From: an uncultured Lachnospiraceae bacterium
GTDB taxonomy: Bacteria > Bacillota > Clostridia > Lachnospirales > Lachnospiraceae
DNA: 16,991 bases
NCBI GenBank assembly: GCA_947068385.1
Contig: CAMTBF010000018.1
Coordinates: 1 to 16,991, forward strand
Reading direction: 5' to 3'
The position numbers and the translations under genes are program-made. Below are positions 1 to 16,991 of the stretch, in pieces (the stretch's first letter is position 1; the number at the start of each line of letters is the position of its first letter). Below the pieces are notes generated by a model. The model saw only the letters and a program-made list of their open reading frames with translations. It ran no database searches and had not been told where the DNA came from.

Positions 1-161
1 GCTTCGCCTGTGAGCAGCTGCAGCACAGCGTGAGCTCCGTTAAGGAAATCGCAAGACTTTCGGGATACAGGGATGCCGGATATTTCAACAAGGTATTTAG
101 GCGCAGCATGAACATGACGCCCGGGGAATATCGGGAGAAGTACTGGCACAGGAATGGATAG
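1..161 (+). CDS. AraC-type HTH protein, C-terminal fragment (probable response regulator)
   Basis: Only the last 52 codons lie in the window, read in frame from base 3 to the TAG at 159-161. The translation shows the second helix-turn-helix of an AraC/XylS DNA-binding domain: a VKEIARLSGY segment, then DAGYFNKVFRRSMNMTPGEYR, which matches the family signature around the recognition helix and the conserved MTPxEYR end. The stop codon overlaps the ribosome site of a downstream YesM-type sensor kinase. By family knowledge this makes a YesN-type response regulator (receiver plus AraC output) the likely full protein, but the receiver domain is outside the window. A plain AraC regulator cannot be excluded. 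Confidence 0.8.
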   Translation, partial: FACEQLQHSVSSVKEIARLSGYRDAGYFNKVFRRSMNMTPGEYREKYWHRNG

Positions 162-170
162 GAGAAGGAG
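160..170 (+). promoter_or_regulatory. Ribosome binding site deciding the histidine kinase start
   Basis: The purine run AGGAGAAGGAG begins inside the stop codon of the upstream gene. It places AAGGAG 4 bases, and the first AGGAG 10 bases, before the ATG at 175. It supports that ATG over the in-frame ATG at 154, which lies inside the upstream gene and has no such site. The layout implies translational coupling of regulator and kinase. Confidence 0.7.
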
Positions 171-174
171 TGGG

Positions 175-1992: not shown

Positions 1993-2063
1993 TGGGGGCC
2001 AGGGAATGAGCCGCCTGCGGCAGGAATGAGGCAGCCGACCAGAACCTCCAAATGCCTTTGCCA

Positions 2064-3740: not shown

Positions 3741-3743
3741 TAT

Positions 3744-3752
3744 CTTTCCTCC
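3744..3752 (-). promoter_or_regulatory. Ribosome binding site of the ABC transporter gene
   Basis: On the minus strand GGAGGAAAG precedes the ATG at 3740, with the GGAGG core 7 bases from the start. This near-perfect Shine-Dalgarno decides the start codon against the upstream in-frame TTG. Confidence 0.8.
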
Positions 3753-3845
3753 ATATACATCTGTGCCGTCCAGGGTGATTGCATGCTTTGTCCTGTGTTC
3801 CTTCAAATATATCTCCCCTTTTTGGGTCAATCCGGAAAATACAAG

Positions 3846-5108
3846 TCACAGCTTCGGATCCCGATACCGGGACAGCACCCTTTTCAGCACCCTGCGCTCC
3901 CCTTCGCCCGGGGTGGCGGTGAGATCCACTCTCCAGGGCACCGAGTAGGGGCCGTCAGGATCCGCCTTCAGCTGCAGGTAGATGCTCCTGCGCCTGGCGG
4001 CGTACTGGGCCGCGTCCGACTGCCCGCACCTGGCCAGCCAGGCCTCATACCCCTCCAGATAGCTCTCGGCCAGCTCGTCCCAGGAGCCGAACCGCTGCTG
4101 GATCACTCTCCCGGCTCTGACGAACTCCACATCCAGCTCTTCGCGGTTTATCATCCGCACCAGGTACATCATGCCCAAAAGCTGGGTGGCCCTGCACAGG
4201 TCCCAGCCCGCGCAGGGGGTATCGTAGCGCCCGGAATGCTTTTCCGTCAGCTCATGTACGGTCTGGAGGCCACCCCGGCGGTCATGGATGTCCCACTGCT
4301 CCCCCAGGGAGGTCTGGCGGAAATTCGCCACCACCTTCCGGCTCCCGTGGACGCCCGTCACCAGAGGCCAGCCCTCCAGCATGGAAAAGGAATGGGCCCA
4401 GATGGCGAAGGTGGAGGCGCACCAAAGCTCGGTGTCGTTTTTGGGCAGCGGGGGATCCCGCTTCCAGAAGATGGCAGGGGCGAAGCGCCAGAGCCGCACC
4501 CCGATCACCCTGTAGAGGAAGAGGAGGATCACGAAGAGCCACGCAGAGGCCATCCTGCCCAGGGCCATGCCGTAATCCGACTGGGAGAGCACCGGCACAT
4601 AGTCCCCGTACATGTCCACATAATGATCCGGGGCCGCCAGCAGCTCTTCGTAGACCAGGACTTCCGCAGGCGGCTCCCACTCTCTCCATACCCCTGTGGG
4701 CAGGCGGTAGACGCCCGCCTCCTCCGTTTCCTGGATCGCTTTTTTGTTGATGTGGGCGATCACCAGCTCTCCGCTGGGGAGGTGCAGGCGGTGGTAGAGC
4801 TGGTCTCCGCTGCGGACAGTGTCATGATTGACCACCGCGCCCTTGGTGATCAGGGTAAAGGTGCCCAGCCGCTCCATGTCCGCAATGGACTCCGCCACCT
4901 GGACATGGGCCCCGGCCTCGCTTCCGGCCGCGCCTTCTTCCAGGGCGGCATCCTTTTGGTAGAATCCATACAGCACAGGCCCCAGGACGAACTCCGCCAG
5001 CAGGGACAGGACAATCAGCAGCGGAATCATCAGAAGCATCATCTGGTACATGCCTGTCCGGAAGCCGTATATATTCTTGTTCGATATCTTGTATCTTGTT
5101 GCGCTCAT
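3846..5108 (-). CDS. DUF1266-domain membrane protein
   Basis: A 420-residue protein with no assigned activity. A hydrophobic helix at about residues 23-47 and a second one at about 185-205 (ASAWLFVILLFLYRVIGV) bracket a roughly 130-residue segment that probably faces outside. The C-terminal half carries the hallmarks of DUF1266 (the YbeU/YbeR family of E. coli): W-D-I-x-D-R, then AGWDLCRATQLLG, then an I-x-x-E-E segment and QRFGSWDELAESYLEGYEAW. By topology the DUF1266 part should be cytoplasmic. The gene starts 10 bases after the stop of the 5'-nucleotidase gene on the same strand, with a GAGG 9 bases before its ATG, so the two are almost certainly co-transcribed. The family match rests on motif pattern. 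The role is unknown. Confidence 0.85.
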   Translation of the reverse strand: MSATRYKISNKNIYGFRTGMYQMMLLMIPLLIVLSLLAEFVLGPVLYGFYQKDAALEEGAAGSEAGAHVQVAESIADMERLGTFTLITKGAVVNHDTVRSGDQLYHRLHLPSGELVIAHINKKAIQETEEAGVYRLPTGVWREWEPPAEVLVYEELLAAPDHYVDMYGDYVPVLSQSDYGMALGRMASAWLFVILLFLYRVIGVRLWRFAPAIFWKRDPPLPKNDTELWCASTFAIWAHSFSMLEGWPLVTGVHGSRKVVANFRQTSLGEQWDIHDRRGGLQTVHELTEKHSGRYDTPCAGWDLCRATQLLGMMYLVRMINREELDVEFVRAGRVIQQRFGSWDELAESYLEGYEAWLARCGQSDAAQYAARRRSIYLQLKADPDGPYSVPWRVDLTATPGEGERRVLKRVLSRYRDPKL

Positions 5109-5118
5109 GACCGAATCC

Positions 5119-7092
5119 TCATCCTTTCCTGCGGGCGCTTCTGCCCGTCAGCCTGCGCACCAGCTTTATGAGCAGCCAGAGCAACAGGGCAATCAGGGCC
5201 AGGAGCAGCACAATGACACCCAGGATGATAAACGCGAATTTATTAGGGCTCTTTACCAAATCGCCGATGGCCCTGCTGTCCTCGATCACCTTGCGGCCCT
5301 GGGCGGAAGCGTAAGCCTCCGGTATGTCAGAGACGCCGTCCCCGTCCAGATCCTCCAGGGAATCCAGGTAAGCGGCGATGGCTGCCCAGGCCTTCAGCTC
5401 CCGCCCGCCGTCCGTGATGATGGCGTCCTCGATGTCCTCTATGGGGGTGCCGTCTGCGAACTTGGGCTGCACGGACAGGATGCCGTAGGACACGTCCGTG
5501 ACGGCGCCCAGCATCTGGCCGCTGTAGAGGTCGCAGACCACACGGTAGAGCTTGTCGTCCTCTATTTCCACACGGTTGCCATTTTCATCGGTCATATAGC
5601 AGTCCGTGACCTTGTTCAGGATGATCCGGTGGGGATTGAAGGTGAAGTGCAGGCCGCTGATGTAGAGCCTGGCGGACTTCATGAAATCCGATACGGAGGC
5701 GTCTATCTCCGCCCCGGTCTTCAGCTCCGCCCCGGTGAGGTACATGCTGATCAGGGGGTAGCCGGGGATGCCGTCCGGGCCTATCCCCAGGGAGTAGGCG
5801 TTGAACACGTCCGTGACGGTGACGTCCCCTGTGGCGAAGGTGTCGCGGACACAGCCTGAGGGCACGATGGCCACGTCGATCGGATGGTCGTCAGGGTCGT
5901 CCGCCTGCGCCGCGGCGTAGGCGAAGGAGTCGGCCAGGAGATTGCCCAGGTTGTGCTCCGTGTGAGTCTCGTACAGGTCGTCCGAGGTGGCGAATTCGAT
6001 GCCGTTTCGGGCCAGGACCTGCTCCGTGGTGTAGCCGAACCGGGCCAGGTAGGTGGCGTCTATCTTCTCCTTCAGGCCATCGATCTTGGCCTGGGCATCG
6101 TCATCGGGCCGGATGTCCTGGGTGACGGGGATCAGCTCATAGGAATCCATCTGCCAGCGCCCGTCCGCCTGCCTGGACATGGACAGGCTCCCCAGGTTCC
6201 TGCCATAGGAGCCGCAGGAGACGATGTAGGTGTCCCCGTGGCGGATGGGTTCATAGAGGGAGGTGTGGGTATGGCCGCTGACGATCAGGTCGATTTCGGG
6301 CACGGCCTTTGCCAGGATTTCGTCCTCGGACTTGTCGGCTTCCTCGCTGGTGCCGCTGTGGGAGACGCAGACTATCATATCAACGTCTTCATTCTCCCGG
6401 ATTTCCTTCACTGTGTCGGCTGCCGCCTCCGAGATGTCCCGGAATTTCAGCACGCAGGTGGGAGCGCAGGCCAGGGAATCCTCCCCGAAGACGCCCAGCA
6501 CCGCGATGCGGATGCCGCCTTTGTCCAGCATGACGTAATCCTTTACGCCATAGGCCGCGAAGGCTTCTTTTAAGAGCCGCTGGTCTTCCGTGAGCCCCTC
6601 CGCCTCCATGGCCTCCCAGTCCACGTTGCACAGGGCCAGGGCGGGGACAGGGTCGCCGCTTTCCGCCGCGGCCTCCAGGGCTCCGGCCAGGCCTACGGAG
6701 CGGTAGTCGAACTCATGGTTGCCGAAGGTGCTGACCTCGCATCCCAGATAGCCCAGCATCCGAAGCTCCGGCGCGTCCGTGTGGAAGATGGTCTGGACCA
6801 GGGTTCCCATGGAGAAGTCCCCGGCATCCAGGAGCAGGGCGTCGGGATTTCCGTCCCTTTTTTCGTCGATCAATGTCTGTATGCGGGCGAAGCCGCCCAA
6901 AGTCACGTTCTGGCCGCCCTCCACGGTGGGGAAGCTGTCCAGATGGGAATGGGTGTCATGGAGGAACAGGATGTCCACCTGCTCCGCGTCCGCCTCCGCC
7001 GCCGCGGCAGGCAGGGAAAACAGCGGGAGCAGGGGGAGCAGCAGCATGACGGCCAGGGAAATGCCCGCGAATTTCTTGGAAAAGCTCTTCAT
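5119..7092 (-). CDS. Secreted, membrane-anchored 5'-nucleotidase/metallophosphatase
   Basis: A 657-residue surface enzyme of the UshA/CpdB/YfkN type, expected to remove phosphate from extracellular nucleotides or related phosphoesters. A signal peptide spans about residues 1-33 (ending LPAAAAEA). The metallophosphatase domain shows D46 and H48 in HDTHSHL, D92 in DAGDF, N125-H126 in FGNHEFDY, a VSHSGT segment and H274/H276 in SGHTHTSL, so both metal sites look intact. The 5'-nucleotidase C-terminal domain follows (HNLGNLLADSF, then VPSGCVRDTF and FNAYSLGIG). A calcium-loop-like DLDGDGVSD lies at 581-589. A transmembrane helix at about 619-642 with an Arg/Lys tail anchors the protein. The ATG at 7092 is chosen for AGAGGAG 11 bases upstream and because it opens directly onto the signal peptide. 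The exact substrate cannot be told. Confidence 0.92.
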   Translation of the reverse strand: MKSFSKKFAGISLAVMLLLPLLPLFSLPAAAAEADAEQVDILFLHDTHSHLDSFPTVEGGQNVTLGGFARIQTLIDEKRDGNPDALLLDAGDFSMGTLVQTIFHTDAPELRMLGYLGCEVSTFGNHEFDYRSVGLAGALEAAAESGDPVPALALCNVDWEAMEAEGLTEDQRLLKEAFAAYGVKDYVMLDKGGIRIAVLGVFGEDSLACAPTCVLKFRDISEAAADTVKEIRENEDVDMIVCVSHSGTSEEADKSEDEILAKAVPEIDLIVSGHTHTSLYEPIRHGDTYIVSCGSYGRNLGSLSMSRQADGRWQMDSYELIPVTQDIRPDDDAQAKIDGLKEKIDATYLARFGYTTEQVLARNGIEFATSDDLYETHTEHNLGNLLADSFAYAAAQADDPDDHPIDVAIVPSGCVRDTFATGDVTVTDVFNAYSLGIGPDGIPGYPLISMYLTGAELKTGAEIDASVSDFMKSARLYISGLHFTFNPHRIILNKVTDCYMTDENGNRVEIEDDKLYRVVCDLYSGQMLGAVTDVSYGILSVQPKFADGTPIEDIEDAIITDGGRELKAWAAIAAYLDSLEDLDGDGVSDIPEAYASAQGRKVIEDSRAIGDLVKSPNKFAFIILGVIVLLLALIALLLWLLIKLVRRLTGRSARRKG

Positions 7093-7154
7093 AATCGAAT
7101 TTACTCCTCTTTTTTGTGAGAATAACATTGGCAAGCAGGTATTTTTACATTATA

Positions 7155-7183
7155 ATAATAATATCTGGGAGGGGAAAAGGCAA
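7155..7183 (-). promoter_or_regulatory. Putative sigma-A promoter of the nucleotidase-DUF1266 unit
   Basis: On the minus strand TTGCCT (7183-7178) and TATTAT (7160-7155) are separated by 17 bases in an AT-rich stretch. The -10 box is about 60 bases before the ATG at 7092. The -35 box matches only 4 of 6 consensus bases, and a nearby TATAAT lacks a well-placed -35. Confidence 0.5.
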
Positions 7184-7198
7184 TATTTAAAAAATATT
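7182..7198. repeat. AT-rich inverted repeat between divergent promoters
   Basis: AATATT, a 5-base spacer TAAAA, and AATATT again form a perfect 6-base inverted repeat. It touches the -35 box of the leftward promoter and lies just upstream of the -35 box of the rightward one. It could be an operator, an UP-like element or chance in AT-rich DNA. Confidence 0.35.
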
Positions 7199-7211
7199 AA
7201 TGTTTCTTTTC

Positions 7212-7240
7212 GTGACGGATGCGCCGGGATGTGGTATAGT
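7212..7240 (+). promoter_or_regulatory. Sigma-A promoter of the LCP operon
   Basis: GTGACG at 7212-7217 (4 of 6 matches to TTGACA) and TATAGT at 7235-7240 (5 of 6 to TATAAT) are separated by exactly 17 bases. The start of transcription should fall near 7247, giving a leader of about 27 bases before the ATG at 7274 that contains the GAGGTGG ribosome site. Confidence 0.7.
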
Positions 7241-7273
7241 GCTCATAAGTCAGTGCAAGAGGTGGAAGGGCAG

Positions 7274-8986
7274 ATGGACGACAGCAACAAAAATGAGATG
7301 GAGCAGATCCAGCGGGGGCTGGAGGCGTTCCTGGAGAAGGAGATGGACGGGGCCGGAGATGCCGGAAGCGGGAAGGGCCCGGGGCCGGATGGCCCGAATC
7401 CCCGGAAGGAGCCGCAGGATGTCCGGATTATAGAAGGGCCTTGGAGCAGAGGCGGTTCCCGGAGAGAGCGGGGGCCCCGGGAGGACGGGGACGCGTATGC
7501 GGAGGACGGCGAGGACTGGGACGACTGGGAGGACGAGTCCCGCTGGAGCCCGGAGGACGGGGAATACGACGAGGACGGGGAACCCTGGCCGGAGGATTGG
7601 CAGGAGGACGAGGACAGGCTGCCGCCCCGTGGGAGGGGAACCGGATACGGGGAAGAGCCGCGCCCCGGGAGGAGAACCGAATACGAGGGGAATCCGTCCC
7701 GGAGGCGAGGAAGCGGATACGAGGAGGATTTGCCCCGGAGGCGAGGAACCGGATACGGGGAGGGGCCGCCCCGGAGGCGGGAGCCGGAGTACGAGGACGA
7801 GGTGCCGGGGAAGCAGCCCCACAGATACCGGGACGAAGCCCCCAGGAGGGGGAGGCCGGCATACGGGGAGCAGGACGGATACGGAGAATACGAAGAGGAG
7901 GAGAGGCCTCAGAAGAGAAAGAAGTCCCAAAAGAAAGGGAATTCCAAAGAGACAGAGCCGGAACAGAGGGAGGGGGATTCCCGGATGACGAAGAAGCCGA
8001 AGACGCCGCCGAAGGCGCAGAAGAAGCGCCGCAAGAAGAAACACGGGCTCAGGAAATTCCTGATAGCCGTGGCGCTGATAATCGCCCTGCTGGGCGTGGG
8101 CCTGTACCAGCTGGTGGGAGCGGTGTACGGAAAGATGAATTATAAGGAGCTGGCGGCCGTGGCCGCGGAGCCCATGAAGGAAGACGGGGTCGTGAACATC
8201 CTTCTGATCGGCAACGACTCCAGGGAGAACGGGGAGGACGGCCGCTCCGACGCCATGATCCTCCTGTCCATCAGCAGCAGGACGAAGACCATCTACATGA
8301 CCTCCCTGCTGCGGGACATCTATGTGGACATCCCCGGGCATGACGGCAACCGCCTGAACGCGGCATACGCCTTCGGCGGCGCGGAGCTCCTGATGGAGAC
8401 CATCGAGCACAATTTCGGCATCCCGGTGAACCGGTACATGCTGGTGAACTTCCAGGCCTTCGCCAATCTGGTGGACGCGGTGGGCGGCATCGAGCTGGAG
8501 CTGACCCGGGACGAGATAGAGTATGTGAACGGCTATCTGGTGGAGTACAACATGCTCACCGGCAGGGAGCAGGGCACGGACAATATGGACCTCTCCGTAG
8601 CCGACAACGGCCCCGCGGTGGTGCACCTGAACGGCCCCCAGGCCCTGGCCTACAGCAGGAACCGCTACCTGGGCACGGATTTCGGCAGGACGGAGCGCCA
8701 GAGGAAGGTCCTGACGGCGGTGATCGGCAAGCTTCCGGGGGCAGTGCTCACCAATGCGGGAGGGCTGATAGACGGCCTCATGCCTAACCTGACCACCAAC
8801 CTGACCAAGAACGAGTGCTTTCGCCTGAGCCTGATGGCGGGGAAGCTGCTGACCTACGACATCGTGTCCGACAATATCCCCCAGCCGGACACCTACCGGG
8901 ACGTGACGATCCGGGAGATGCAGGTGCTGGAGGTGGATTTCGAGACGAATATCAAATATCTGAGAGAGAAGATATACGGAGAATAG
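7274..8986 (+). CDS. LCP (LytR-CpsA-Psr) family cell-wall ligase with long repeat-rich cytoplasmic tail
   Basis: A 570-residue membrane enzyme of the LCP family, which attaches lipid-linked glycopolymers such as teichoic acids or capsule to peptidoglycan. A transmembrane helix at about 262-283 separates a 260-residue cytoplasmic tail from the extracellular LCP domain (about 305-490). The domain shows NILLIGNDSR, GRSDAMILLSI with D326, SLLRDIYVDIPG with R347, RLNAAYAFGGAELLMETI, and the late arginines YSRNRYLGTDFGRTERQRK (R472). There is no LytR_C tail domain. The tail is much longer than usual and divides into an acidic Trp-rich block (70-116), seven 12-residue repeats (117-200) and a Lys-rich block next to the membrane. 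The ATG at 7274 is chosen for GAGGTGG 8 bases upstream and for the promoter just before it; the frame stays open further upstream. First gene of a probable five-gene unit. Confidence 0.92.
   Translation: MDDSNKNEMEQIQRGLEAFLEKEMDGAGDAGSGKGPGPDGPNPRKEPQDVRIIEGPWSRGGSRRERGPREDGDAYAEDGEDWDDWEDESRWSPEDGEYDEDGEPWPEDWQEDEDRLPPRGRGTGYGEEPRPGRRTEYEGNPSRRRGSGYEEDLPRRRGTGYGEGPPRRREPEYEDEVPGKQPHRYRDEAPRRGRPAYGEQDGYGEYEEEERPQKRKKSQKKGNSKETEPEQREGDSRMTKKPKTPPKAQKKRRKKKHGLRKFLIAVALIIALLGVGLYQLVGAVYGKMNYKELAAVAAEPMKEDGVVNILLIGNDSRENGEDGRSDAMILLSISSRTKTIYMTSLLRDIYVDIPGHDGNRLNAAYAFGGAELLMETIEHNFGIPVNRYMLVNFQAFANLVDAVGGIELELTRDEIEYVNGYLVEYNMLTGREQGTDNMDLSVADNGPAVVHLNGPQALAYSRNRYLGTDFGRTERQRKVLTAVIGKLPGAVLTNAGGLIDGLMPNLTTNLTKNECFRLSLMAGKLLTYDIVSDNIPQPDTYRDVTIREMQVLEVDFETNIKYLREKIYGE
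7622..7873 (+). repeat. Seven tandem 36-bp units encoding 12-residue Arg/Gly/Tyr repeats
   Basis: Inside the LCP gene seven in-frame 36-bp units follow without gaps (starts at 7622, 7658, 7694, 7730, 7766, 7802, 7838). The third and fourth read PSRRRGSGYEED and LPRRRGTGYGEG. Tyrosine is at position 9 of all seven and proline is at position 1 or 2 of every copy. The middle copies are most alike and the outer ones have drifted, as expected of duplication followed by decay. Confidence 0.85.
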
Positions 8987-8995
8987 GAGGAGAGT

Positions 8996-9304
8996 ATGGA
9001 TCTGGTATTGCTATTGTTCATAGGAGGTACGTGCGCTTATGTGGGCGCGAAGATTCTCAGCAGCGATGAGAGGAACAAGGTGTTCAACAAGTTCCCCATC
9101 CAGGTGGAGGACGTGAAGAAGTACAATAGGTTCTGCGCCAAGCTGGTCATGGGCTTTGGCGTGGCGGCGGTGGTCACCATGTTCTGCACCTACCTTATCG
9201 GAGGGTGGGTCAGCCTGGTGGGCACGCTGCTCTTGATCGTGGAGGCGTATGTCACCATGAAGATTTACAACAAGGGCGAGAAGAAGATGCTGAAGAAAAG
9301 ATAG
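8996..9304 (+). CDS. Small three-helix membrane protein, unknown function
   Basis: A 102-residue protein starting 9 bases after the LCP stop with an AGGAGGAGAGT ribosome site, so it is very likely co-transcribed. A first hydrophobic helix (about 2-18) is followed by a charged loop containing a VFNKFPIQVEDVKKYNRF segment, two further hydrophobic stretches (about 48-69 and 70-88), and a Lys/Arg tail. The pattern of a short N-terminal helix, a charged K-Y-N loop and a helix pair resembles the small clostridial DUF3784-type proteins, but I do not recognise it firmly. Partnership with the LCP protein is inferred only from position. Confidence 0.8.
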   Translation: MDLVLLLFIGGTCAYVGAKILSSDERNKVFNKFPIQVEDVKKYNRFCAKLVMGFGVAAVVTMFCTYLIGGWVSLVGTLLLIVEAYVTMKIYNKGEKKMLKKR

Positions 9305-9319
9305 CGCATCATAACGAAT

Positions 9320-9326
9320 GGAGGAG
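9320..9326 (+). promoter_or_regulatory. Ribosome binding site deciding the aldo/keto reductase start
   Basis: GGAGGAG ends 6 bases before the ATG at 9333. An in-frame ATG at 9318 overlaps this site and cannot use it, so 9333 is the start. Confidence 0.75.
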
Positions 9327-9332
9327 AATAAA

Positions 9333-10469
9333 ATGGAGAAAAGAAAACTGGAGAAACTGGGAATCGAGACATCGCTGCTGGGATTCGGCTGCATGCGCTT
9401 CCCGGTGACCGCGGATGGGAAGATCGACGAGCCGGAGGCGGAGCGGATGCTGGATAAGGCCATCGCCGCCGGAGTGAACTATATCGACACCGCCTATCCC
9501 TACCACGACGGCGCAAGCGAGCCCTTCGTGGGCAGGGCCCTGAAGAAATACGACAGGCATTCCTTCTTCCTGGCCACCAAGCTGCCCTGCTGGAAGGTGG
9601 AGAAGCTGGATGACGTGGAGGCGACCTTCCAGGAGCAGCTGGGCCGCCTGCAGACGGACTACATAGACTTCTACCTGCTCCACGCCCTGAACAAGGACAG
9701 CTTCCACAAGATGGTGGAGCTGGGGGCAGTGGAGAAGCTGGAGGCCCTGAAGGCGGAGGGGAAGATCCGGTACCTGGGCTTCTCCTTCCATGACGACTAT
9801 AACGTCTTCGAGGAGATCTTGAACTACAGGGACTGGGACTTCTGCCAGATCCAGCTCAACTACATGGACACGGAGGAGCAGGCCGGGATGAAGGGCTACC
9901 GCCTCACCGAGGAGAAGGGCATCCCCCTGGTCATCATGGAGCCTGTCAAGGGCGGCTCCCTGGCGGCCTTCGCGGACGACATCACCGGGAAGTTCAGGGC
10001 CCTGGATCCGGAGGCTTCCATCGCCTCCTACGCCCTGCGCTGGGTGGGGAGCCTGCCCAACGTGAAGGTCATCTTAAGCGGCATGAGCACCATGGAGCAG
10101 GTGGAGGACAATCTGAAGACCTTTGAGGGCTTCCGGCCCCTGTCCCCGGAGGAGGGCGCCACCATAGAGGACATCGTGGCGCTGATCAAGGGCCGCGTCC
10201 AGAACGGCTGCACAGGCTGCCGCTACTGCATGCCCTGCCCGGCGGGCGTGGACATCCCCGGCAATTTCCGGGTGTGGAACACCTACCACATGTACCAGAA
10301 CTACAACATGGTCAAGGGGAGCTGGGAGCGGAACCTGGGCGACGAGAAGCAGGCGAAGAACTGCGTGAAGTGCGGCAAGTGCGAGATGGCCTGCCCCCAG
10401 AAGCTCCACATCCGGGAGGATCTGGAGAAGGTGCAGGCGGATCTGGACAGGAAGGAATTCGTGTTCTGA
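9333..10469 (+). CDS. Aldo/keto reductase with C-terminal twin [4Fe-4S] motifs
   Basis: A 378-residue cytoplasmic oxidoreductase. The aldo/keto reductase barrel (about 1-270) shows the catalytic set expected of the family: D52 and Y57 (or Y55) in YIDTAYPYHDG, K83 in ATKLP and H117 in LLHALN. The C-terminal part carries two iron-sulfur motifs: C293, C296, C299 and C302 in CTGCRYCMPCP, and C344, C347, C350 and C354 in CVKCGKCEMACP. This ferredoxin-tailed AKR architecture is known and common in anaerobic Firmicutes, where electrons probably pass to or from the clusters. Substrate unknown. It follows the small membrane protein after 28 bases, and its stop overlaps the ribosome site of the following AraC gene, indicating translational coupling. 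Confidence 0.93.
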   Translation: MEKRKLEKLGIETSLLGFGCMRFPVTADGKIDEPEAERMLDKAIAAGVNYIDTAYPYHDGASEPFVGRALKKYDRHSFFLATKLPCWKVEKLDDVEATFQEQLGRLQTDYIDFYLLHALNKDSFHKMVELGAVEKLEALKAEGKIRYLGFSFHDDYNVFEEILNYRDWDFCQIQLNYMDTEEQAGMKGYRLTEEKGIPLVIMEPVKGGSLAAFADDITGKFRALDPEASIASYALRWVGSLPNVKVILSGMSTMEQVEDNLKTFEGFRPLSPEEGATIEDIVALIKGRVQNGCTGCRYCMPCPAGVDIPGNFRVWNTYHMYQNYNMVKGSWERNLGDEKQAKNCVKCGKCEMACPQKLHIREDLEKVQADLDRKEFVF

Positions 10470-10483
10470 GGAGATGGTTTCCC

Positions 10484-11371
10484 ATGGAGAAGGCCTTTAA
10501 GCTGGACTTTGAGAATGATAAGGCGGGCAGCCTGTATGTGAACTGCTGCGGCTGCTCCCGGACGGAGGGGCTGCACAGCTTCGGCCCTGCCTCCAAGCCC
10601 CATTACCTGATCCACTATGTGCTGAGCGGCAGGGGGCTGTTCCGGTTCCACGACAAGGAATACCGGCTGGAGGCGGGGTACGGATTCCTGATACAGCCCA
10701 ATGAGCTGGCATTCTACCAGTCGGATCGGGAGGAGCCCTGGAGCTATCTGTGGGTGGGCTTCGGCGGGAGCCGGGCGGGAGAGTACCTGAGCGCCATGGG
10801 GCTGTCCGCCAGGCATCCCATCTTTTCCTGCGACAGGGACCAGGAGCTGTATTCCATCGTAAAGGACATGATGGAGCACAACACCTTCGGCGTGGCCGAC
10901 GACCTGCGCCGCAACGGCCTGCTGGGGGTCTTCCTCTCGGTGCTGGCCGAGAGCGCAGGCGTGGTGGCCAGGGACCAGGAGGACAAGGGCAACCAGTATG
11001 TGAAGAAGGCCGTGTCCTTCATCCAGAGCAATTACTGCAATCCCATCAAGGTGACGGATGTGGCGGATTACGTGTGCATCAACAGAAGCTATCTCTATAC
11101 GCTGTTCCAGAATTATCTCGGGATGTCCCCCCAGCAGTTCCTCTCCACGTTCCGCATCACAAAGGCCAGAGAGCTGCTGGACTCCACCACTTACCCCATA
11201 GAGAGCATCGCCCTGTCCTGCGGCTACAATGACGCGCTGGTGTTCACCAAGGCCTTCCGGGCCATGAAGGGCATGTCCCCCTCGGAGTACCGCAGGGCCA
11301 GCCACAGGGAGAACAGCAGGGAACAGCTCCACGAGGTGGAGCATCTGATCGCGCAGCTGCTGAAGGAGTGA
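10484..11371 (+). CDS. AraC-family transcriptional regulator with N-terminal cupin domain
   Basis: A 295-residue cytoplasmic regulator. The N-terminal half has the AraC-type cupin pattern (HYLIHYVLSGRGLFRF, then a Y-R-L-E-A-G-x-G-F-L-I-Q-P segment). The C-terminal domain (about 170-272) has both helix-turn-helix units of the family: VTDVADYVCINRSYLYTLF, then IESIALSCGYNDALVFTKAF followed by GMSPSEYR. The ATG at 10484 follows AGGAGA (10469-10474) by 9 bases, and that site overlaps the stop of the reductase gene. Such proteins usually bind sugars or related small ligands, but no transporter is adjacent, so it may control the reductase or the whole unit. The ligand cannot be inferred. Confidence 0.92.
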   Translation: MEKAFKLDFENDKAGSLYVNCCGCSRTEGLHSFGPASKPHYLIHYVLSGRGLFRFHDKEYRLEAGYGFLIQPNELAFYQSDREEPWSYLWVGFGGSRAGEYLSAMGLSARHPIFSCDRDQELYSIVKDMMEHNTFGVADDLRRNGLLGVFLSVLAESAGVVARDQEDKGNQYVKKAVSFIQSNYCNPIKVTDVADYVCINRSYLYTLFQNYLGMSPQQFLSTFRITKARELLDSTTYPIESIALSCGYNDALVFTKAFRAMKGMSPSEYRRASHRENSREQLHEVEHLIAQLLKE

Positions 11372-11404
11372 GGGAGGGGCGCTCTGGCGGCAGGATTTAT
11401 GTTT

Positions 11405-11410
11405 GGGAGG
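11405..11410 (+). promoter_or_regulatory. Ribosome binding site deciding the RNA repair enzyme start
   Basis: GGGAGG stands 7 bases before the ATG at 11418 and only 1 base before the in-frame ATG at 11412. The second ATG is therefore the usable one, and it places the kinase P-loop close to the N-terminus as in the T4 Pnkp family. Confidence 0.75.
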
Positions 11411-11417
11411 AATGAAA

Positions 11418-13619
11418 ATGAGGATTTTGCTATTGTTAAGGGGCTCCGCCAGCTGCGGGAAGTCCACCTGGATCGCCCAGCATGGCCTAAAGCCCTATGC
11501 GCTGTCGGCGGACGACATCCGGCTGCTGTGCCAGAGCCCGGTGATGCTGCCGGACGGCACGGAGGGAATCAGCCAGGACAATGACGCCACGGTGTGGAAG
11601 ACCCTGTTCGCCATCCTGGAGGTCAGGATGCAGAGGGGCGACTTCACGGTCATCGACGCGACGAACTCCAAGACCAGCGAGATGAACCGGTACAAGGAGA
11701 TGTGCGACACCTACCGTTACAGGATATACTGCGTGGACTTCACGGACATCCCCATCCAGGAGGTGAAGCGCAGGAACGCGGGCAGAGAGGTGGTGAAGAG
11801 GGTGCCGGAGGCCGTGATCGACAATATGTACGCCCGGTTCCGCACCCAGAAGATTCCCTCGGGCATCAAGGTGATCCGGCCCGACGAGCTGGACACGGTG
11901 TGGACCAGGCTCTTCGACATGTCCTCCTACAAGCGCGTCCACCACATCGGCGATATCCACGGCTGCAACACCGCCCTGCAGAAGTACCTGGCGGACAACG
12001 GCGGCATCAAGGATGATGAAATGTACATTTTTATAGGGGATTACATCGACAGGGGGCTGGAGAACGTGGAGGTGGTGGAGTTCCTGATGTCCATCATGGG
12101 CCGCAAGAACGTGCTGATGCTGGAGGGCAACCACGAGAGGTGGCTGTGGCACTGGGCCAATGATACCACGGGCAGGTCCAAGGAATTCGAGCTGGTCACC
12201 AGGCCCCAGCTGGATGCCGCCGGGCTGGACAAGAAGCAGGTCAGGCAGCTGTACCGGAAGTTCGGCCAGTGCGCCTATTATCGGTATGACGACAAGATAT
12301 TCCTGGTCACCCACGCGGGCCTGAGCACCCTGCCGGAGAACATCTCCTTCGTGGCCACGGAGCAGATGATCAAGGGCGTGGGCAGCTACAATGACTTCGA
12401 GGTCATAGCGGAGTCCTTCTTCGACACCACGCCGGCCAACTGCTACCAGATCCACGGGCACCGCAACACCAAGCAACTGCCCGTGCAGGTCAACGACAGG
12501 GTGTTCAACCTGGAGGGGCAGGTGGAGTACGGCGGCTGCCTGCGCTGCGTCCAGGTGGACAGGGAGGGCATCCGCTGCGTCGAGGTGCCCAATGAGGTGT
12601 ACAGGACGCCGGAGGCGGCACAGGAGCAGACGGTGACGGAGAGCGACATCGGGGACGTGATCATCGCCCTGCGCCAGAACAGATACATCCAGGAGAAGAA
12701 GTACGGCAACATCTCCTCCTTCAACTACACGGACAAGGCCTTCTACGACAGGGTCTGGGACGCCCAGACCACCAAGGCCAGGGGGCTGTACCTGGATACC
12801 GCGAAGGGGAAGGTGGTGGCCAGGGCCTACGACAAGTTCTTCAATGTCAACGAGCGGCCGGAGACCAGGTTCGACATGCTGCAGCATAAGCTGCGGTTCC
12901 CGGTGACGGCCTATGTGAAGGAGAACGGGTTCCTGGGGATCGCCAGCTACAACGAATACGAGGACGCCCTGTTCCTGGCCAGCAAGTCCACCATAGACAG
13001 CCAGTACGCCGGGTATTTCCAGGAGATGGTGCGGCGGAAGGTGTCCCCGGAGCATCTGGAGGGGCTGAAGGCCTACTGCAGGGAGCATGAAGTCTCCTTT
13101 GTCTTCGAATGCGTGGACATGGAGAACGACCCGCATATCATCGAGTATCCGGAGAGCAGGCTGTTCCTGCTGGACATCGTGCACAATAAGATGGAATTTG
13201 AGAGATACGGCTATGAGGACATGTGCCATGTGGCGGAAGGGCTGGGGCTGACGCCCAAGGAGAGGGCGGCGGAGCTGGGCACCTGGCAGGAGTTCTTCGA
13301 CTGGTACTATGAGGTCATGGAGGCGGACTACGAATACCGGGGGCACAGGATCGAGGGCTTCGTCATCGAGGACAGCGCCGGGTACATGACCAAGCTGAAG
13401 CTGACCTACTACAATTTCTGGAAGTTCATGCGCAGCGTGTCCCACGAGGCCATCCGCAAGGGCTACATCACCAAGACCTCCGCCCTGACCACGCCCCTGG
13501 CCAACGAGTATTACGCCTGGGTCAGGAAGCTCCACGATGTGGAGGACAGGGAGGCCCTGCCCAAGGACATCTGCACGCTGCGGCGGATGTTCTACCAGGA
13601 GAAAGGAACGGCGCATTGA
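11418..13619 (+). CDS. Three-domain RNA repair enzyme: 5'-kinase, metallophosphatase and T4 Rnl1-like RNA ligase
   Basis: A 733-residue protein that appears to hold a complete RNA end-healing and sealing pathway. Residues 1 to about 165 form a T4-Pnkp-like P-loop kinase: GSASCGKSTW with K15, VIDATN and the lid-like VKRRNAGREVVKRVP. About 172-400 is a calcineurin-like phosphatase: GDIHGC (D179, H181), GDYIDRG (D208, D211), GNHE (N238, H239), THAGLS and HGHRN. About 430-733 is a ligase of the T4 Rnl1 type: ARAYDKFFNVNE, motif I VKENGFLGI with nucleophile K501, motif IIIa-like FVFECVD (E564), motif IV IEGFVIED (E646) and motif V TKLKL (K659, K661). The order matches bacterial Pnkp, as in Clostridium thermocellum (about 870 residues), but the ligase looks phage Rnl1-like and the chain is shorter. 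No Hen1 methyltransferase gene is in the window. It follows the AraC gene by 46 bases. Activities are inferred from motifs. Confidence 0.9.
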   Translation: MRILLLLRGSASCGKSTWIAQHGLKPYALSADDIRLLCQSPVMLPDGTEGISQDNDATVWKTLFAILEVRMQRGDFTVIDATNSKTSEMNRYKEMCDTYRYRIYCVDFTDIPIQEVKRRNAGREVVKRVPEAVIDNMYARFRTQKIPSGIKVIRPDELDTVWTRLFDMSSYKRVHHIGDIHGCNTALQKYLADNGGIKDDEMYIFIGDYIDRGLENVEVVEFLMSIMGRKNVLMLEGNHERWLWHWANDTTGRSKEFELVTRPQLDAAGLDKKQVRQLYRKFGQCAYYRYDDKIFLVTHAGLSTLPENISFVATEQMIKGVGSYNDFEVIAESFFDTTPANCYQIHGHRNTKQLPVQVNDRVFNLEGQVEYGGCLRCVQVDREGIRCVEVPNEVYRTPEAAQEQTVTESDIGDVIIALRQNRYIQEKKYGNISSFNYTDKAFYDRVWDAQTTKARGLYLDTAKGKVVARAYDKFFNVNERPETRFDMLQHKLRFPVTAYVKENGFLGIASYNEYEDALFLASKSTIDSQYAGYFQEMVRRKVSPEHLEGLKAYCREHEVSFVFECVDMENDPHIIEYPESRLFLLDIVHNKMEFERYGYEDMCHVAEGLGLTPKERAAELGTWQEFFDWYYEVMEADYEYRGHRIEGFVIEDSAGYMTKLKLTYYNFWKFMRSVSHEAIRKGYITKTSALTTPLANEYYAWVRKLHDVEDREALPKDICTLRRMFYQEKGTAH

Positions 13620-13658
13620 GGCACTGCCCGGATAGTCTGGAAGTGCAGCCGGAAAATC

Positions 13659-13686
13659 AAAAAAGCCCATCTCCATGGGCTTTTTT
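13659..13686. terminator. Bidirectional intrinsic terminator
   Basis: A perfect 12-base-pair hairpin: AAAAAAGCCCAT (13659-13670), loop ctcc, ATGGGCTTTTTT (13675-13686). The flanking A and T runs give a U-tract in either direction. It ends the rightward RNA repair gene 40 bases after its stop and the leftward tRNA-Pro 5 bases after its 3' end. Confidence 0.92.
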
Positions 13687-13690
13687 ATAG

Positions 13691-13764
13691 TCGGCGCGAC
13701 AAGATTTGAACTTGCGACCTCTGCGTCCCGAACGCAGCGCTCTACCAAGCTGAGCCACGCGCCG
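13691..13764 (-). tRNA. tRNA-Pro (anticodon CGG)
   Basis: On the minus strand a 74-base cloverleaf folds with the 7-pair acceptor stem CGGCGCG/CGCGCCG and discriminator A. The D-arm lies in GTGGCTCAGCTTGGTAGAGC. The anticodon stem CTGCG/CGCAG encloses the loop TTCGGGA, giving anticodon CGG (reads CCG, proline). A T-loop GTTCAAATC follows. The 3' CCA is not encoded (CTA follows). Confidence 0.95.
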
Positions 13765-13806
13765 ATATGCTTTCAGACCTTCAATAGAAAAATAGATAAC
13801 ATAAAA

Positions 13807-13835
13807 ATAATAAATAAAAAATGCTTGCTTGTCAA
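13807..13835 (-). promoter_or_regulatory. Strong sigma-A promoter of tRNA-Pro
   Basis: On the minus strand a perfect TTGACA (13835-13830) and TATTAT (13812-13807) are 17 bases apart. The -10 box is 42 bases before the tRNA 5' end, leaving a leader of roughly 35 bases for RNase P removal. Confidence 0.88.
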
Positions 13836-13853
13836 GAGGAAAAAGGATATTAT
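13825..13853 (+). promoter_or_regulatory. Putative sigma-A promoter of the rlmI-like gene
   Basis: TTGCTT (13825-13830) and TATTAT (13848-13853) are separated by 17 bases, 33 bases before the ATG at 13887. Its -35 box shares base 13830 with the -35 box of the divergent tRNA-Pro promoter. Confidence 0.6.
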
Positions 13854-13886
13854 GTAAGAAATATTTCAGAAATAAAGAGGAAGAGA

Positions 13887-15089
13887 ATGTACCAGACAAT
13901 CGTGACATTGAAAAAAGGGGAGGGACGCACCCTGAAGGCCGGCGGCATGTGGGTGTACGACAACGAGATCGCCTCCGTCACAGGGGATTTTGAAGACGGA
14001 GATATAGTAGAAGTGCATGACTTCGACGGCTACTGCATGGGCTGCGGCTACATCAACAGGAAGTCCAAGATCACCCTGCGGATGCTGTCCCGCAAAAAGG
14101 ACGCCGTCATAGACGAGAGCTTCCTGGAGAGGCGCGTCCGGGACGCCTGGGAGTACCGCAGGCAGACCATCGACACCTCCAGCTGCCGCCTGATATTCGG
14201 CGAGGCGGATTTCCTGCCGGGCATCGTGGTGGACAAATTCGCCGACGTGCTGGTGGTGGAGTCCCTGGCGCTGGGGATAGACCGGTGGAAGGGCGCGATC
14301 GTGGAGGCGCTGAAGAAGGTGCTGGCGGAGGACGGCATCCATATCCGGGGCGTCTATGAGCGCAGCGATGCCAAGGTGCGCCTGCAGGAGGGCATGGAGC
14401 GGGTCAAGGGCTTCATCGGCGAGGCCTTCGACACCAAGGTGGAGATCGTGGAGAACGGTGTCCGGTACATGGTGGACGTGGAGGACGGACAGAAGACGGG
14501 CTTTTTCCTGGACCAGAAGAACAACAGGGCCGCGGTGGGGAGGCTCTGCAAAGGGAAGAAGGTGCTGGACTGCTTTACCCACACGGGATCCTTCGCCCTG
14601 AACGCCGGCATGGCCGGGGCGGAGAGCGTGCTGGGGGTGGACGCCTCGCAGCTGGCCGTGGAGCAGGCCAGGGAGAACGCCAGGCTCAACGGCTTGGAGG
14701 AGAGGGTGCGGTTCGAATGCGCGGACGTGTTCGAGCTCCTGCCCCGGCTGGAGCAGCAGGGGGAGCGGTTCGACGTGGTCATCCTGGACCCTCCTGCATT
14801 TACAAAATCACGGAATTCCGTGAAAAATGCCGCAAAGGGCTATCGGGAGATTAACCTCCGGGGCATGAAGCTGGTGCGGGACGGCGGCTTCCTGGCCACC
14901 TGCTCCTGTTCCCATTTCATGGAGCCGGAGCTGTTCGCCAAGACCATCCGGGAGGCTGCGGCGGGGGCCCACAGGAGGCTGCGCCAGGTGGAGTTCCGCA
15001 CCCAGGGGCCTGACCACCCGATCCTCTGGGCGGCGGATCAGTCGTATTATCTGAAGTTCTACATTTTCCAGTTGATCGGCGAACGCTGA
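13887..15089 (+). CDS. rlmI: RlmI-like 23S rRNA cytosine-C5 methyltransferase
   Basis: A 400-residue S-adenosylmethionine-dependent methyltransferase of the RlmI (YccW) family. In E. coli this enzyme makes 5-methylcytosine at position 1962 of 23S rRNA. An N-terminal PUA RNA-binding domain (about 1-72) is followed by the family's central segment (DFLPGIVVDKFADVLVVESL and KTGFFLDQKNNRA) and a Rossmann domain. There motif I reads LDCFTHTGSFALNAG, the acidic residue lies in LGVDASQ, and motif IV is DPPAFTK (D301-P303). Cysteines C339 and C341 lie in ATCSCSHFM, where the catalytic cysteine of the family lies. The ATG at 13887 follows AGAGG by 6 bases and begins the PUA domain directly. The exact target base in this organism is inferred from the family. 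Confidence 0.92.
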   Translation: MYQTIVTLKKGEGRTLKAGGMWVYDNEIASVTGDFEDGDIVEVHDFDGYCMGCGYINRKSKITLRMLSRKKDAVIDESFLERRVRDAWEYRRQTIDTSSCRLIFGEADFLPGIVVDKFADVLVVESLALGIDRWKGAIVEALKKVLAEDGIHIRGVYERSDAKVRLQEGMERVKGFIGEAFDTKVEIVENGVRYMVDVEDGQKTGFFLDQKNNRAAVGRLCKGKKVLDCFTHTGSFALNAGMAGAESVLGVDASQLAVEQARENARLNGLEERVRFECADVFELLPRLEQQGERFDVVILDPPAFTKSRNSVKNAAKGYREINLRGMKLVRDGGFLATCSCSHFMEPELFAKTIREAAAGAHRRLRQVEFRTQGPDHPILWAADQSYYLKFYIFQLIGER

Positions 15090-15140
15090 ACCGCCCTTCC
15101 TGATTCTGGACAGATGTAAGGCACAGGAAGGAGCCGGGCT

Positions 15141-16067
15141 ATGAGGATAGGAAAATTTATTTTGCGGACATTGCTCTTTCTGCTGCTGGCCACGGCTGCA
15201 GGCGCGGCGCTGTACCTGTATCCCGCATGGAAGGCCGCGAAGGCCCTGGAGGATGGGATGGAGCTGCCCTGCAAGGCCTTTGAGCTGGAGGTGGAGCTGG
15301 ACAGGGAGGCGGTGCCTCAGGAGCAGGAGAAGATGCTGGGGACGCTGGCCAGGCTTACGGGAACGCCGGAGGATGCCATGTACAGGCTTTCCGTCCAGGG
15401 GAGCGCGCTGGAGGGAAAGGCCCATCTGCTGATCTATCCGGACGGCAGGGCGGAGCCTTTGGTGGAGCTGTATTTAAGCGATGACATGAGCGTCATAAAC
15501 GAGACCATGCTGTACGACGCCGTCCGCGGCAACCTGACGGAAAAGCTTGGGCTGCTGGATTATCTGATGCCCAGGCAGGAGGAGACGCTGTACATGACCC
15601 TGGAGCAGGTGGAACAGCTCTTCGGCACGGACCTGAGCGGGATTGGGGACATGGGCCTGCCTGCGCCGGGGAAGGAGATTGGGGCAAAGGAGTATTTCCT
15701 GATGCTGGCTGTCATGGCCAGGGAAAAGAGCGGGGACGGATACAGCTTCGCGCTGGAGCGGGAGCAGCTGAGCCTTGGCTTCGACTTGGCCGATGGAGGC
15801 GGCGCGACGATGCGGCTCCGGATAGAGGATCCTGCACAGGCCCTTGCAAAGGCGGACGGGCTGCTGTCCTGGCTGGGAAAGGCGCTGCCCTGGGAGGGGC
15901 CGGTTCGGGAGGGGCTGCAGGGCGTGAAGAGCCTTTCCGTGACGCTGACGCCACAGGAGGGCGGAAGCCTGACGATTCCCACGAACCTTGTCGGTCAGGA
16001 TACCATAAATATATTGACTAATATCCGCACATGGGTTCAGGAGGCGTTCGGCGGTTTTGGCGGGTAG
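15141..16067 (+). CDS. Unrecognised signal-anchored extracellular protein
   Basis: A 308-residue protein I do not recognise. A basic start (MRIGKFILR) and a hydrophobic helix at about 8-27 form a signal anchor or signal peptide; no lipobox cysteine is present. The remaining 280 residues are rich in Leu, Glu and Gly with no internal helix, so they should lie outside the membrane. No catalytic motif stands out. The only cysteine is in ELPCKAFELEVEL. AAGGAG lies 8 bases before the ATG. It starts 51 bases after the methyltransferase stop with no terminator between, so it may share that transcript. The next gene also encodes a membrane protein, so the two may form a pair. Confidence 0.8.
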   Translation: MRIGKFILRTLLFLLLATAAGAALYLYPAWKAAKALEDGMELPCKAFELEVELDREAVPQEQEKMLGTLARLTGTPEDAMYRLSVQGSALEGKAHLLIYPDGRAEPLVELYLSDDMSVINETMLYDAVRGNLTEKLGLLDYLMPRQEETLYMTLEQVEQLFGTDLSGIGDMGLPAPGKEIGAKEYFLMLAVMAREKSGDGYSFALEREQLSLGFDLADGGGATMRLRIEDPAQALAKADGLLSWLGKALPWEGPVREGLQGVKSLSVTLTPQEGGSLTIPTNLVGQDTINILTNIRTWVQEAFGGFGG

Positions 16068-16133
16068 CGCCGTAGGCGGGGATTAGGCCGCTGTTTTAGG
16101 CAGAGGCTTCAGGGAATGCGGGAGATTCAGATC

Positions 16134-16139
16134 GGAGGG
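16134..16139 (+). promoter_or_regulatory. Ribosome binding site deciding the start of the last protein gene
   Basis: GGAGGG ends 6 bases before the ATG at 16146 and directly abuts the ATG at 16140. It favours 16146 over 16140 and over a longer start at 16116. Confidence 0.55.
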
Positions 16140-16145
16140 ATGAGG

Positions 16146-16808
16146 ATGGCGGCCAACTGGAAGGACGACTGGAAAGAGGATCTGGGCAAGACGATCGTGG
16201 GCGTTGCGATCGGCTGCCTGTGGGTGATAGGGCTCCTGCTCCTGGTGGCGAACGGCGGGAACTTCTGGATGGCGGCGAAGCCCGGGACGGACATAGCGCA
16301 GCTGATGGAAAACGGCGGAGCCCGGGAGGGGATGCACGTGACGGGGCGGGTGCCCTATGTCTATGACTGCTTCGCGAACCTGTCGGATTCCGAGGGCGGG
16401 GACGCCAGCGAATACTATTACGCGCTGCCCTCTGCGGACGGGATATTGATCCTGGGCGTTCCGGCCCAGCGCCAGGAGGCTGTGGAAGCGCTCTGGGAGG
16501 AAAGCTGGGAGTACGCGGCGGACGGGACCATGCCGTCTTCCGCGGTGGCGCTGGAGGGCTATGTGACCAAGGCCAGGGGAAGGCTTCCGTATCTGCTGTC
16601 GGAATATCTGGTGGATGTGCTGGGCTACTCCCGGGAGGAGGCGGACGCCATGGGGGAGCCGCTCTTGGTCCGGGACGCCGCCGAGGCGTTCCACAGGGCC
16701 AGGATCTACGGGCCGGTGGGCATGATCCTGCTGACTTCCGGAATCCTTCTTCTGATCCTGTACCTGTTCCTCCGGAAGCGCCATGCGCAAAAAGAGACAG
16801 GAAAATAG
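16146..16808 (+). CDS. Unrecognised two-helix membrane protein
   Basis: A 220-residue protein with a short charged N-terminus, a transmembrane helix at about 16-37 (TIVGVAIGCLWVIGLLLLVA), an extracellular region of about 150 residues and a second helix near 190-210 (GMILLTSGILLLILYLFL) before a basic tail. This predicts a hairpin with both ends in the cytoplasm. The loop has VTGRVPYVYDCFAN and ASEYYYALPSADGILILGVPA, reminiscent of a small beta-rich module, but I cannot name a family. An alternative start at 16116 would add 10 residues. It follows the preceding gene by 78 bases with no terminator, so co-transcription is likely. Confidence 0.8.
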   Translation: MAANWKDDWKEDLGKTIVGVAIGCLWVIGLLLLVANGGNFWMAAKPGTDIAQLMENGGAREGMHVTGRVPYVYDCFANLSDSEGGDASEYYYALPSADGILILGVPAQRQEAVEALWEESWEYAADGTMPSSAVALEGYVTKARGRLPYLLSEYLVDVLGYSREEADAMGEPLLVRDAAEAFHRARIYGPVGMILLTSGILLLILYLFLRKRHAQKETGK

Positions 16809-16810
16809 GA

Positions 16811-16840
16811 ATTTTAAAAAATTTTAAAAAATTTGCAAAA
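16811..16840 (+). promoter_or_regulatory. Helically phased A-tracts, probable UP element
   Basis: Three successive 10-base units (ATTTTAAAAA at 16811, the same at 16821, ATTTGCAAAA at 16831) place A/T tracts in phase with the helix. They lie just upstream of the -35 box of the tRNA-Lys promoter, where RNA polymerase alpha subunits bind. Confidence 0.55.
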
Positions 16841-16845
16841 AACAC

Positions 16846-16874
16846 TTGCATTTATGCGCGGAATATAATATAAT
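16846..16874 (+). promoter_or_regulatory. Sigma-A promoter of tRNA-Lys
   Basis: TTGCAT (16846-16851) and a perfect TATAAT (16869-16874) are 17 bases apart. The expected start near 16881 leaves a leader of about 50 bases before the tRNA. Confidence 0.85.
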
Positions 16875-16930
16875 CTATTTTGTTCTTGTGAGAGACACAT
16901 ACGGCGAAAGCAGTATGGCACATAAGAGAT

Positions 16931-16991
16931 GCGCCACTAGCTCAGTTGGTAGAGCACCTGACTCTTAATCAGGGTGTCCAGGGTTCGAGCC
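16931..16991 (+). tRNA. tRNA-Lys (anticodon CTT), cut by window end
   Basis: The first 61 bases show the acceptor strand GCGCCAC, TA linker, D-arm GCTCAGTTGGTAGAGC, anticodon stem CCTGA/TCAGG around the loop CTCTTAA (anticodon CTT, reads AAG, lysine), and the start of the T-arm with GTTCGAG. The 3' acceptor strand lies beyond the window, so stem pairing cannot be checked. Confidence 0.92.

Follow-up and report, generated by a model that had tools for sequence, protein, structure and literature searches.

A predicted kinase-phosphatase-ligase RNA repair enzyme with a fungal Trl1-like ligase domain in phages and Lachnospiraceae

Can one bacterial protein carry everything needed to heal and seal broken RNA, which known enzymes do its parts resemble, and what would a gut bacterium gain from keeping it? 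These questions are raised by a gene at positions 11418..13619 (+ strand) of a stretch of 16,991 nucleotides (the window; contig CAMTBF010000018.1, positions 1 to 16,991, assembly GCA_947068385.1) from an uncultured Lachnospiraceae bacterium. Its product is referred to here as kinase-phosphatase-ligase (KPL). The reading we prefer, with a probability of about 0.75, is that KPL is an enzyme of phage derivation that by itself heals and seals RNA ends, acting on tRNA or other structured RNA cut by ribotoxins. The domain make-up, the conserved catalytic residues, the fold likeness of the model, the phage distribution and purifying selection are observed here; which reactions the enzyme carries out, in what order and on what substrate, which way the gene moved, and what it does for phage and bacterium are inferences.

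Three predicted activities in one chain

The KPL gene is an uninterrupted frame of 733 codons and a stop codon, with a probable ribosome-binding site, gggagg, read directly at 11404..11409 (+ strand), about 8 bases 5' of the ATG; TTG at 11403 and ATG at 11412 are alternative in-frame starts. The frame is not a product of chance, because the phage RNA ligase family PHROG 8238 fits residues 1-729 (733.6 bits, profile positions 1-733 of 737) and 33 of 35 related genome loci are near-full-length. A single full-length copy is present in the genome of origin. An earlier reading of the DNA letters (the sequence-only reading) had placed three domain types in this one 733-residue chain, which is confirmed by Pfam scores above the cut-off for all three: AAA_33 at residues 4-142 (67.5 bits, cut-off 27), Metallophos at 173-257 (48.7 bits, cut-off 21.5) and RNA_lig_T4_1 (PF09511, the Rnl1-superfamily adenylyltransferase) at 453-665 (144.1 bits, cut-off 28.3). 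The motifs it quoted are also in place (DKFFNVNE at 472-479, K501 within KENG, IEGFVIED at 645-652 and TKLKL at 658-662).

The chain divides into four domains, all on the + strand. The 5'-OH polynucleotide kinase domain (residues 1-164, 11418..11909) has a P-loop with G14, K15 and S16, together with D32, R35 and R123, and the calcineurin-type phosphatase domain (residues 161-399, 11898..12614) has D179, H181, D208, N238, H239, H299 and H348. The ligase adenylyltransferase domain (residues 407-663, 12636..13406), where the RNA_lig_T4_1 match lies, has R455, K473, motif I (K501-x-N503-G504), K523, E564, H573, E646, K659 and K661 as key residues. It is followed by a fungal Trl1-like helical domain at the C-terminus (residues ~664-733, 13407..13616) with K669, R672 and a terminal I-x-x-L-R-x-x-F motif. 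We take the catalytic status of these residues from what is generally held for T4 Pnkp, Clostridium thermocellum Pnkp (CthPnkp) and Rnl1.

Conservation was read from alignments of 21 rows (A1, including Twort, Brochothrix A9, an SPbeta-like phage and plasmid copies) and 51 rows (A3). Identical in every row of both are G14, K15, D32, R35 and R123 of the kinase, D179, D208, N238, H239 and H348 of the phosphatase, and R455, K473, K501, N503, G504, K523, E564, H573, E646, K659, K661 and R672 of the ligase. S16 is Ser or Thr throughout; H181 and H299 each differ in one row of A1, K669 is Arg in one row of A1, and all three are invariant in A3. With nearly every checked catalytic residue invariant among the aligned relatives, the proposal that a single chain, its active sites intact, both heals and seals is supported. 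An AlphaFold2 model built on the 51-sequence alignment has a mean confidence (pLDDT) of 90.6 and a predicted template modelling score (pTM) of 0.69, and the linker 400-408 is its only segment with pLDDT below 50. The prediction of three activities is on these grounds a strong one. The kinase would add phosphate to the 5'-OH of broken RNA, the metallophosphatase would open the 2',3'-cyclic phosphate and then strip the phosphate, and the ligase, charged with AMP at K501, would hand the AMP to the 5'-phosphate and close the break. Its substrate is likely to be tRNA, or another structured RNA, that metal-independent ribotoxins have cut.

A Pnkp-type healer with a Trl1-type sealer

Both the kinase and the phosphatase are closer to C. 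thermocellum Pnkp than to T4 Pnkp. The claim of a T4 Pnkp-like kinase therefore stands only in part: the nearest relative is the clostridial enzyme, while the KPL kinase profile does also match T4 PseT (35 bits). The phosphatase, with Metallophos above cut-off and C. thermocellum Pnkp as nearest relative, is calcineurin-like as in bacterial Pnkp, in agreement with the first assignment. C. thermocellum Pnkp likewise joins a kinase, a calcineurin-type phosphatase and a third, nucleotidyl-transferring domain in one chain, and KPL has the kinase and calcineurin-type phosphatase that characterize bacterial Pnkp. The Pnkp-type C-terminal adenylyltransferase was not found with the NCBIfam bacterial Pnkp model TIGR04075, which reaches 76.5 bits against a curated cut-off of 750 and matches residues 4-303 only, leaving the ligase outside; a ligase closer to the CthPnkp clade is not what this match indicates. 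The CthPnkp ligase was not among the 50 entries listed in the VIA structure comparison, which excludes nothing.

Hen1, the partner of bacterial Pnkp, was not found by profile search in the genome of origin (assembly 89.5% complete) and was over the cut-off in none of the 32 other KPL-carrying genomes. Sub-threshold matches in 18 of these 32 were confined to profile positions 222-427, the general methyltransferase part, and in a control search Hen1 was over the cut-off in 1 of 14 genomes. This bears out the proposal of a healer and sealer without Hen1, and no reliable pairing of Hen1 with the gene in relatives was seen. KPL differs from the C. thermocellum Pnkp-Hen1 system in its kind of ligase and in that no Hen1 was found with it, and on these two grounds it was ruled out as a member of bacterial Pnkp. 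A frame of 891 residues in one of 200 family genomes (L004, G052:C41:124272-125195), which matches KPL residues 4-303 at 27% identity, is possibly a bacterial Pnkp.

The nearest solved structure to the KPL ligase is fungal Trl1, not T4 Rnl1. A search of the PDB with the ligase alone returned Trl1 chains only, plus one unrelated row at E 1.5. The ligase had been thought to follow T4 Rnl1 through its whole length; this did not hold, since the T4 alignments stop at residues 671-691 (structural) or 667 (hidden Markov model), while those with Trl1 run through the C-terminal domain to residues 730-731. A sub-profile of residues 640-733, motifs IV and V included, scored 8.7 bits against T4 Rnl1, and TIGR02308, the T4 Rnl1 equivalog, stayed below threshold (34.4 bits, cut-off 242.25). 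An adenylyltransferase followed by an all-helical C-terminal domain of the Trl1 type, a ligase type also named Rnl6, is present in KPL.

PMC6592678 describes a sulfate close to the Trl1 active site, bound by two residues of the C-terminal domain, Arg334 and Arg337, together with His227 and Asn150, and takes it to mimic an RNA phosphate. The same paper calls this C-terminal domain unique in its superfamily and poses the question whether it confers the need for a 2'-phosphate. The KPL family seems to share a C-terminal domain of this type. Trl1 N150, H227, R334 and R337 align in sequence with KPL N503, H573, K669 and R672 (one Arg as Lys), and, apart from one K669R, no row of A1 or A3 departs from these equivalents. 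T4 Rnl1 differs at all four positions: its KEDG motif places Asp101 in the Asn column, the His column is a gap, and extending the alignment without gaps brings His250 and Lys253 into the last two. The likeness of the pocket, as far as aligned residues can tell, raises a 2'-phosphate mode of sealing for KPL without demonstrating it.

In its full form this possibility supposes that the ligase requires a 3'-OH/2'-phosphate end, that the phosphatase acts mainly as a cyclic phosphodiesterase leaving the 2'-phosphate, and that KptA/Tpt1 clears the junction. The Trl1-type ligase with its C-terminal domain, and the four sulfate-pocket residues that T4 Rnl1 lacks, speak for it. So does a KptA gene in the genome of origin and in 17 of 33 KPL carriers overall. 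In the former it lies directly behind a PIN7-domain gene (KptA/Tpt1 RNA 2'-phosphotransferase and PIN7 pair, L214, G000:C234, 36-650 and 690-1667, - strand), and the two may form an operon. In the remaining 16 of 33 carriers, many of them incomplete metagenome-assembled genomes, KptA was not detected, which counts against the idea. In the genus sample KptA occurred in 7 of 11 KPL carriers versus 12 of 50 non-carriers (Fisher p 0.026); this pairing of KptA with KPL, suggestive at first, vanished once small genomes were excluded (p 0.17 with a lower size limit of 2.7 Mb, p 1.0 with one of 3.1 Mb). Staphylococcus phages, which supply 96 of 421 KPL-matching phage records, are absent from the ten most frequent organism names in the 94 KptA-matching records. 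H181 is kept in KPL, and this too would tell against the idea if, as is said, CthPnkp yields a 2'-phosphate product only after a change at the equivalent His. On balance we regard such Trl1-like sealing as unlikely. It overlaps with the preferred reading of KPL as a self-sufficient repair enzyme, because the repair role is common to both and only the state of the 3' end differs.

Compared as whole enzymes, fungal Trl1 and KPL have in common three activities in one chain, a ligase fold with the C-terminal domain, and the sulfate-pocket residues. Trl1 has the order LIG-KIN-CPD with a cyclic phosphodiesterase of the 2H type; KPL runs kinase, metallophosphatase, ligase, and the full Trl1 architecture is not found in it. 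T4 PseT and RnlA (Rnl1) provide, according to the T4 record, a kinase, a phosphatase and an Rnl1-superfamily ligase for tRNA repair, as the parts of KPL would, but as two proteins and with another ligase C-terminal part, and the T4 phosphatase is not calcineurin-like. The RNA ligase-kinase-phosphatase of the baculovirus AcNPV is a single chain with an Rnl1-like ligase, and its domain order and phosphatase class are unlike those of KPL.

In the phages Murica (L212 326-2334) and PAK_P1 (L213 1-3659) a phosphoesterase, a P-loop kinase-like protein and an RNA ligase are encoded by separate neighbouring genes. The KPL ligase profile gave 69 bits with the Murica ligase, 56 with that of PAK_P1 and 40 with T4 Rnl1. 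The KPL kinase profile finds the P-loop genes at E 3e-7 and 1e-6, and the phosphoesterases barely match the phosphatase profile (E 0.025 and 0.011). This arrangement suggests that the RNA repair toolkit occurs both split and fused. An annotated ribose-phosphate pyrophosphokinase gene comes next after the repair genes of PAK_P1.

Phage relatives and a copy kept on the chromosome

KPL was first taken for a distinct system, and in this it proved less novel than supposed: it belongs to a widespread phage-borne family already in PHROGs, present in SPbeta-like, Twort-like and Brochothrix phages. The PHROG 8238 phages (Twort, Brochothrix A9, SPbeta-like) share domain order and a full-length match with KPL; theirs is a phage gene, whereas that of the window is chromosomal and in a fixed gene order. 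KPL matches 421 of 50,697 phage records (113 covering at least 80% of the protein; 35-45% identity in the 60 best) and 61 of 72,556 plasmid records (7 covering at least 80%). A protein search scored 7996 candidates, 4132 of them at E ≤0.001, and 120 among the matches listed all had the three Pfam domains. A first scan of viral contigs gave 27 loci and a second at least 395 relatives in 600 stretches, 80 of which were kept. One viral contig of 253 kb (IMGVR_UViG_3300028591_000074; L104, L106) has two KPL genes near opposite ends, 59% and 58% identical to that of the window. Genome contigs gave the 35 loci mentioned above, 30 with titles naming Lachnospiraceae or other Clostridia. One of the two short loci (L054) ends with its contig. 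The other is a remnant of 178 residues (L056 3692-4216; L003, G143:C149:42687-43214), which joins a part resembling the N-terminal 110 residues to one resembling residues 331-395 and lacks the middle and the ligase. A homologue is also available from Acetatifactor muris DSM 23669.

A tree of 97 rows was made from proteins of at least 650 residues, minus the duplicate L001, with 32 chosen of the 80 viral loci. In it KPL of the window falls in a clade of 13 bacterial rows (support by SH-aLRT 96) among phage rows. It seems that KPL was captured from phages by a Lachnospiraceae ancestor. The nesting is no proof of this direction, since the viral rows were chosen by likeness to the window and some of the genome rows may in fact be prophages (L034 and the viral L061 are identical).

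Phage kin, a tRNA-Pro(CGG) gene (13690..13764, - strand) whose 3' end lies about 70 bases past KPL, and the one relative reduced to 178 residues might together suggest a decaying, functionless prophage remnant at that tRNA. The intact catalytic residues do not fit such a remnant, nor does the neighbourhood. An AraC-family regulator recognized by Pfam (10484..11371, + strand) lies directly upstream and is kept beside KPL in close relatives, and the order aldo/keto reductase-AraC-KPL recurs in 8 of 35 genome loci (L022-L029). The gap to tRNA-Pro, about 70 bases in the window (13620-13690), is 1.3 to 7.2 kb in the four relatives in which the tRNA was found (L024, L025, L027, L030), and this variation suggests that DNA was inserted or lost at this place more than once. 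Among the window genes scanned, neither an integrase nor any other phage family was found. The ratio of nonsynonymous to synonymous substitution rates (dN/dS; own NG86 implementation) was far below 1: of 11 comparisons with the window, 7 gave 0.04-0.16, and 5 pairs without it gave 0.04-0.07; dS was saturated in the other four comparisons and is only rough, because the proportion of synonymous differences (pS) exceeded 0.75 there. KPL is under purifying selection in close relatives and away from a phage context. The remnant explanation, in our view very improbable, was set aside because the AraC side, not the tRNA side, is constant and selection is purifying.

Elsewhere in the genus AraC occurs in 24 of 61 genomes, 17 of these without KPL, and no KPL lay beside AraC in the 10 of these 17 that were fetched (one ends 1.3 kb after AraC). 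In the carrier G274, KPL is close to tRNA-Pro and AraC is on a different contig. The window also holds a second tRNA gene, cut by its end (16931-16991, + strand; found by Rfam and missed by ARAGORN), and a DUF1266 protein gene (3846-5108, - strand) flanked by an ABC transporter and a 5'-nucleotidase-like gene; L023 has the DUF1266 gene as well.

Partners and biological role

In phages KPL may counter host tRNA-cutting defences, and in bacteria it may rescue the cell's own RNA. An anti-nuclease or conflict role of this kind is plausible by analogy, given the phage setting and the precedents of T4, Pnkp-Hen1 (PMC4411300) and jumbo phages, for which a survey (PMC7824862) describes sets of kinase, phosphatase and ligase, the phosphatase being calcineurin-like in a small number of phages.

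Several results weigh against our preferred reading. KPL is patchy: in a sample of 200 family genomes only the genome of origin has it full length, and in one of 61 genomes of the genus 11 do. AAA_13, the ATPase part of PrrC/RloC-type proteins, was over the cut-off in 2 of the 61 genus genomes, neither of them a KPL carrier, and in none of the 11 carriers of this sample; a PrrC/RloC pairing with KPL was rejected on this count, and other RNA-cutting toxins were not surveyed. Beside KPL there is no conserved toxin or nuclease partner among the neighbour families listed. Clustering of open reading frames (ORFs) from 83 loci and the window gave, besides KPL, no gene family in more than 14 loci, and the larger clusters were phosphatase relatives, from loci of the family-genome sample, and phage-type genes. 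A scan of 72 neighbouring ORFs from 13 loci (out of 196 ORFs of at least 90 amino acids in 23 loci; alignment A4, unrelated proteins aligned solely for joint scanning) found no family in more than three ORFs and no toxin partner among the 25 of 104 Pfam and 25 of 62 PHROG families listed.

The enzyme might have no conflict role and serve in the general mending of stress-broken RNA or, in phages, as an aid to tail-fibre attachment, for which the T4 RnlA record is annotated too. The absence of defence or toxin genes beside KPL among the families listed, and of a PADLOC match, fits this explanation. Tail fibres would presumably not need the kinase and phosphatase, yet their sites are as conserved as those of the ligase, and the bacterial copy is under purifying selection remote from any phage; we consider the explanation improbable.

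In Brochothrix phage A9 (L086 1418-6196) and Alicyclobacillus phage KKP_3916 (L087 2193-6238) a nicotinamide/nicotinate phosphoribosyltransferase gene is followed by one small ORF and then KPL, and RNA repair and NAD salvage therefore adjoin in these phages. In A9 the phosphoribosyltransferase gene follows an annotated ribose-phosphate pyrophosphokinase without a Pfam match at 1e-5.

The KPL protein family is already known from databases, as are its parts and the combination of healing and sealing in one chain (in yeast and in baculovirus). For a Pnkp-type healer with a Trl1-type sealer, without Hen1 and kept by Lachnospiraceae, no description was found in a limited literature search. The likeness of the ligase to Trl1, phosphate pocket included, makes it a testable question whether sealing in prokaryotes can proceed through a 2'-phosphate as in fungi. 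It is doubtful that KPL represents eukaryote-type tRNA sealing in a form used by bacteria and phages, with a Trl1-like ligase on a Pnkp-type healer, 2'-phosphate joining and removal by KptA. If it were, sealing by KPL would be a source of substrate for bacterial KptA/Tpt1, and the origin of the fungal tRNA-splicing ligase would be tied to phage RNA-repair enzymes. Phages of Gram-positive hosts commonly carry such all-in-one RNA repair without Hen1, and some gut Lachnospiraceae have retained it.
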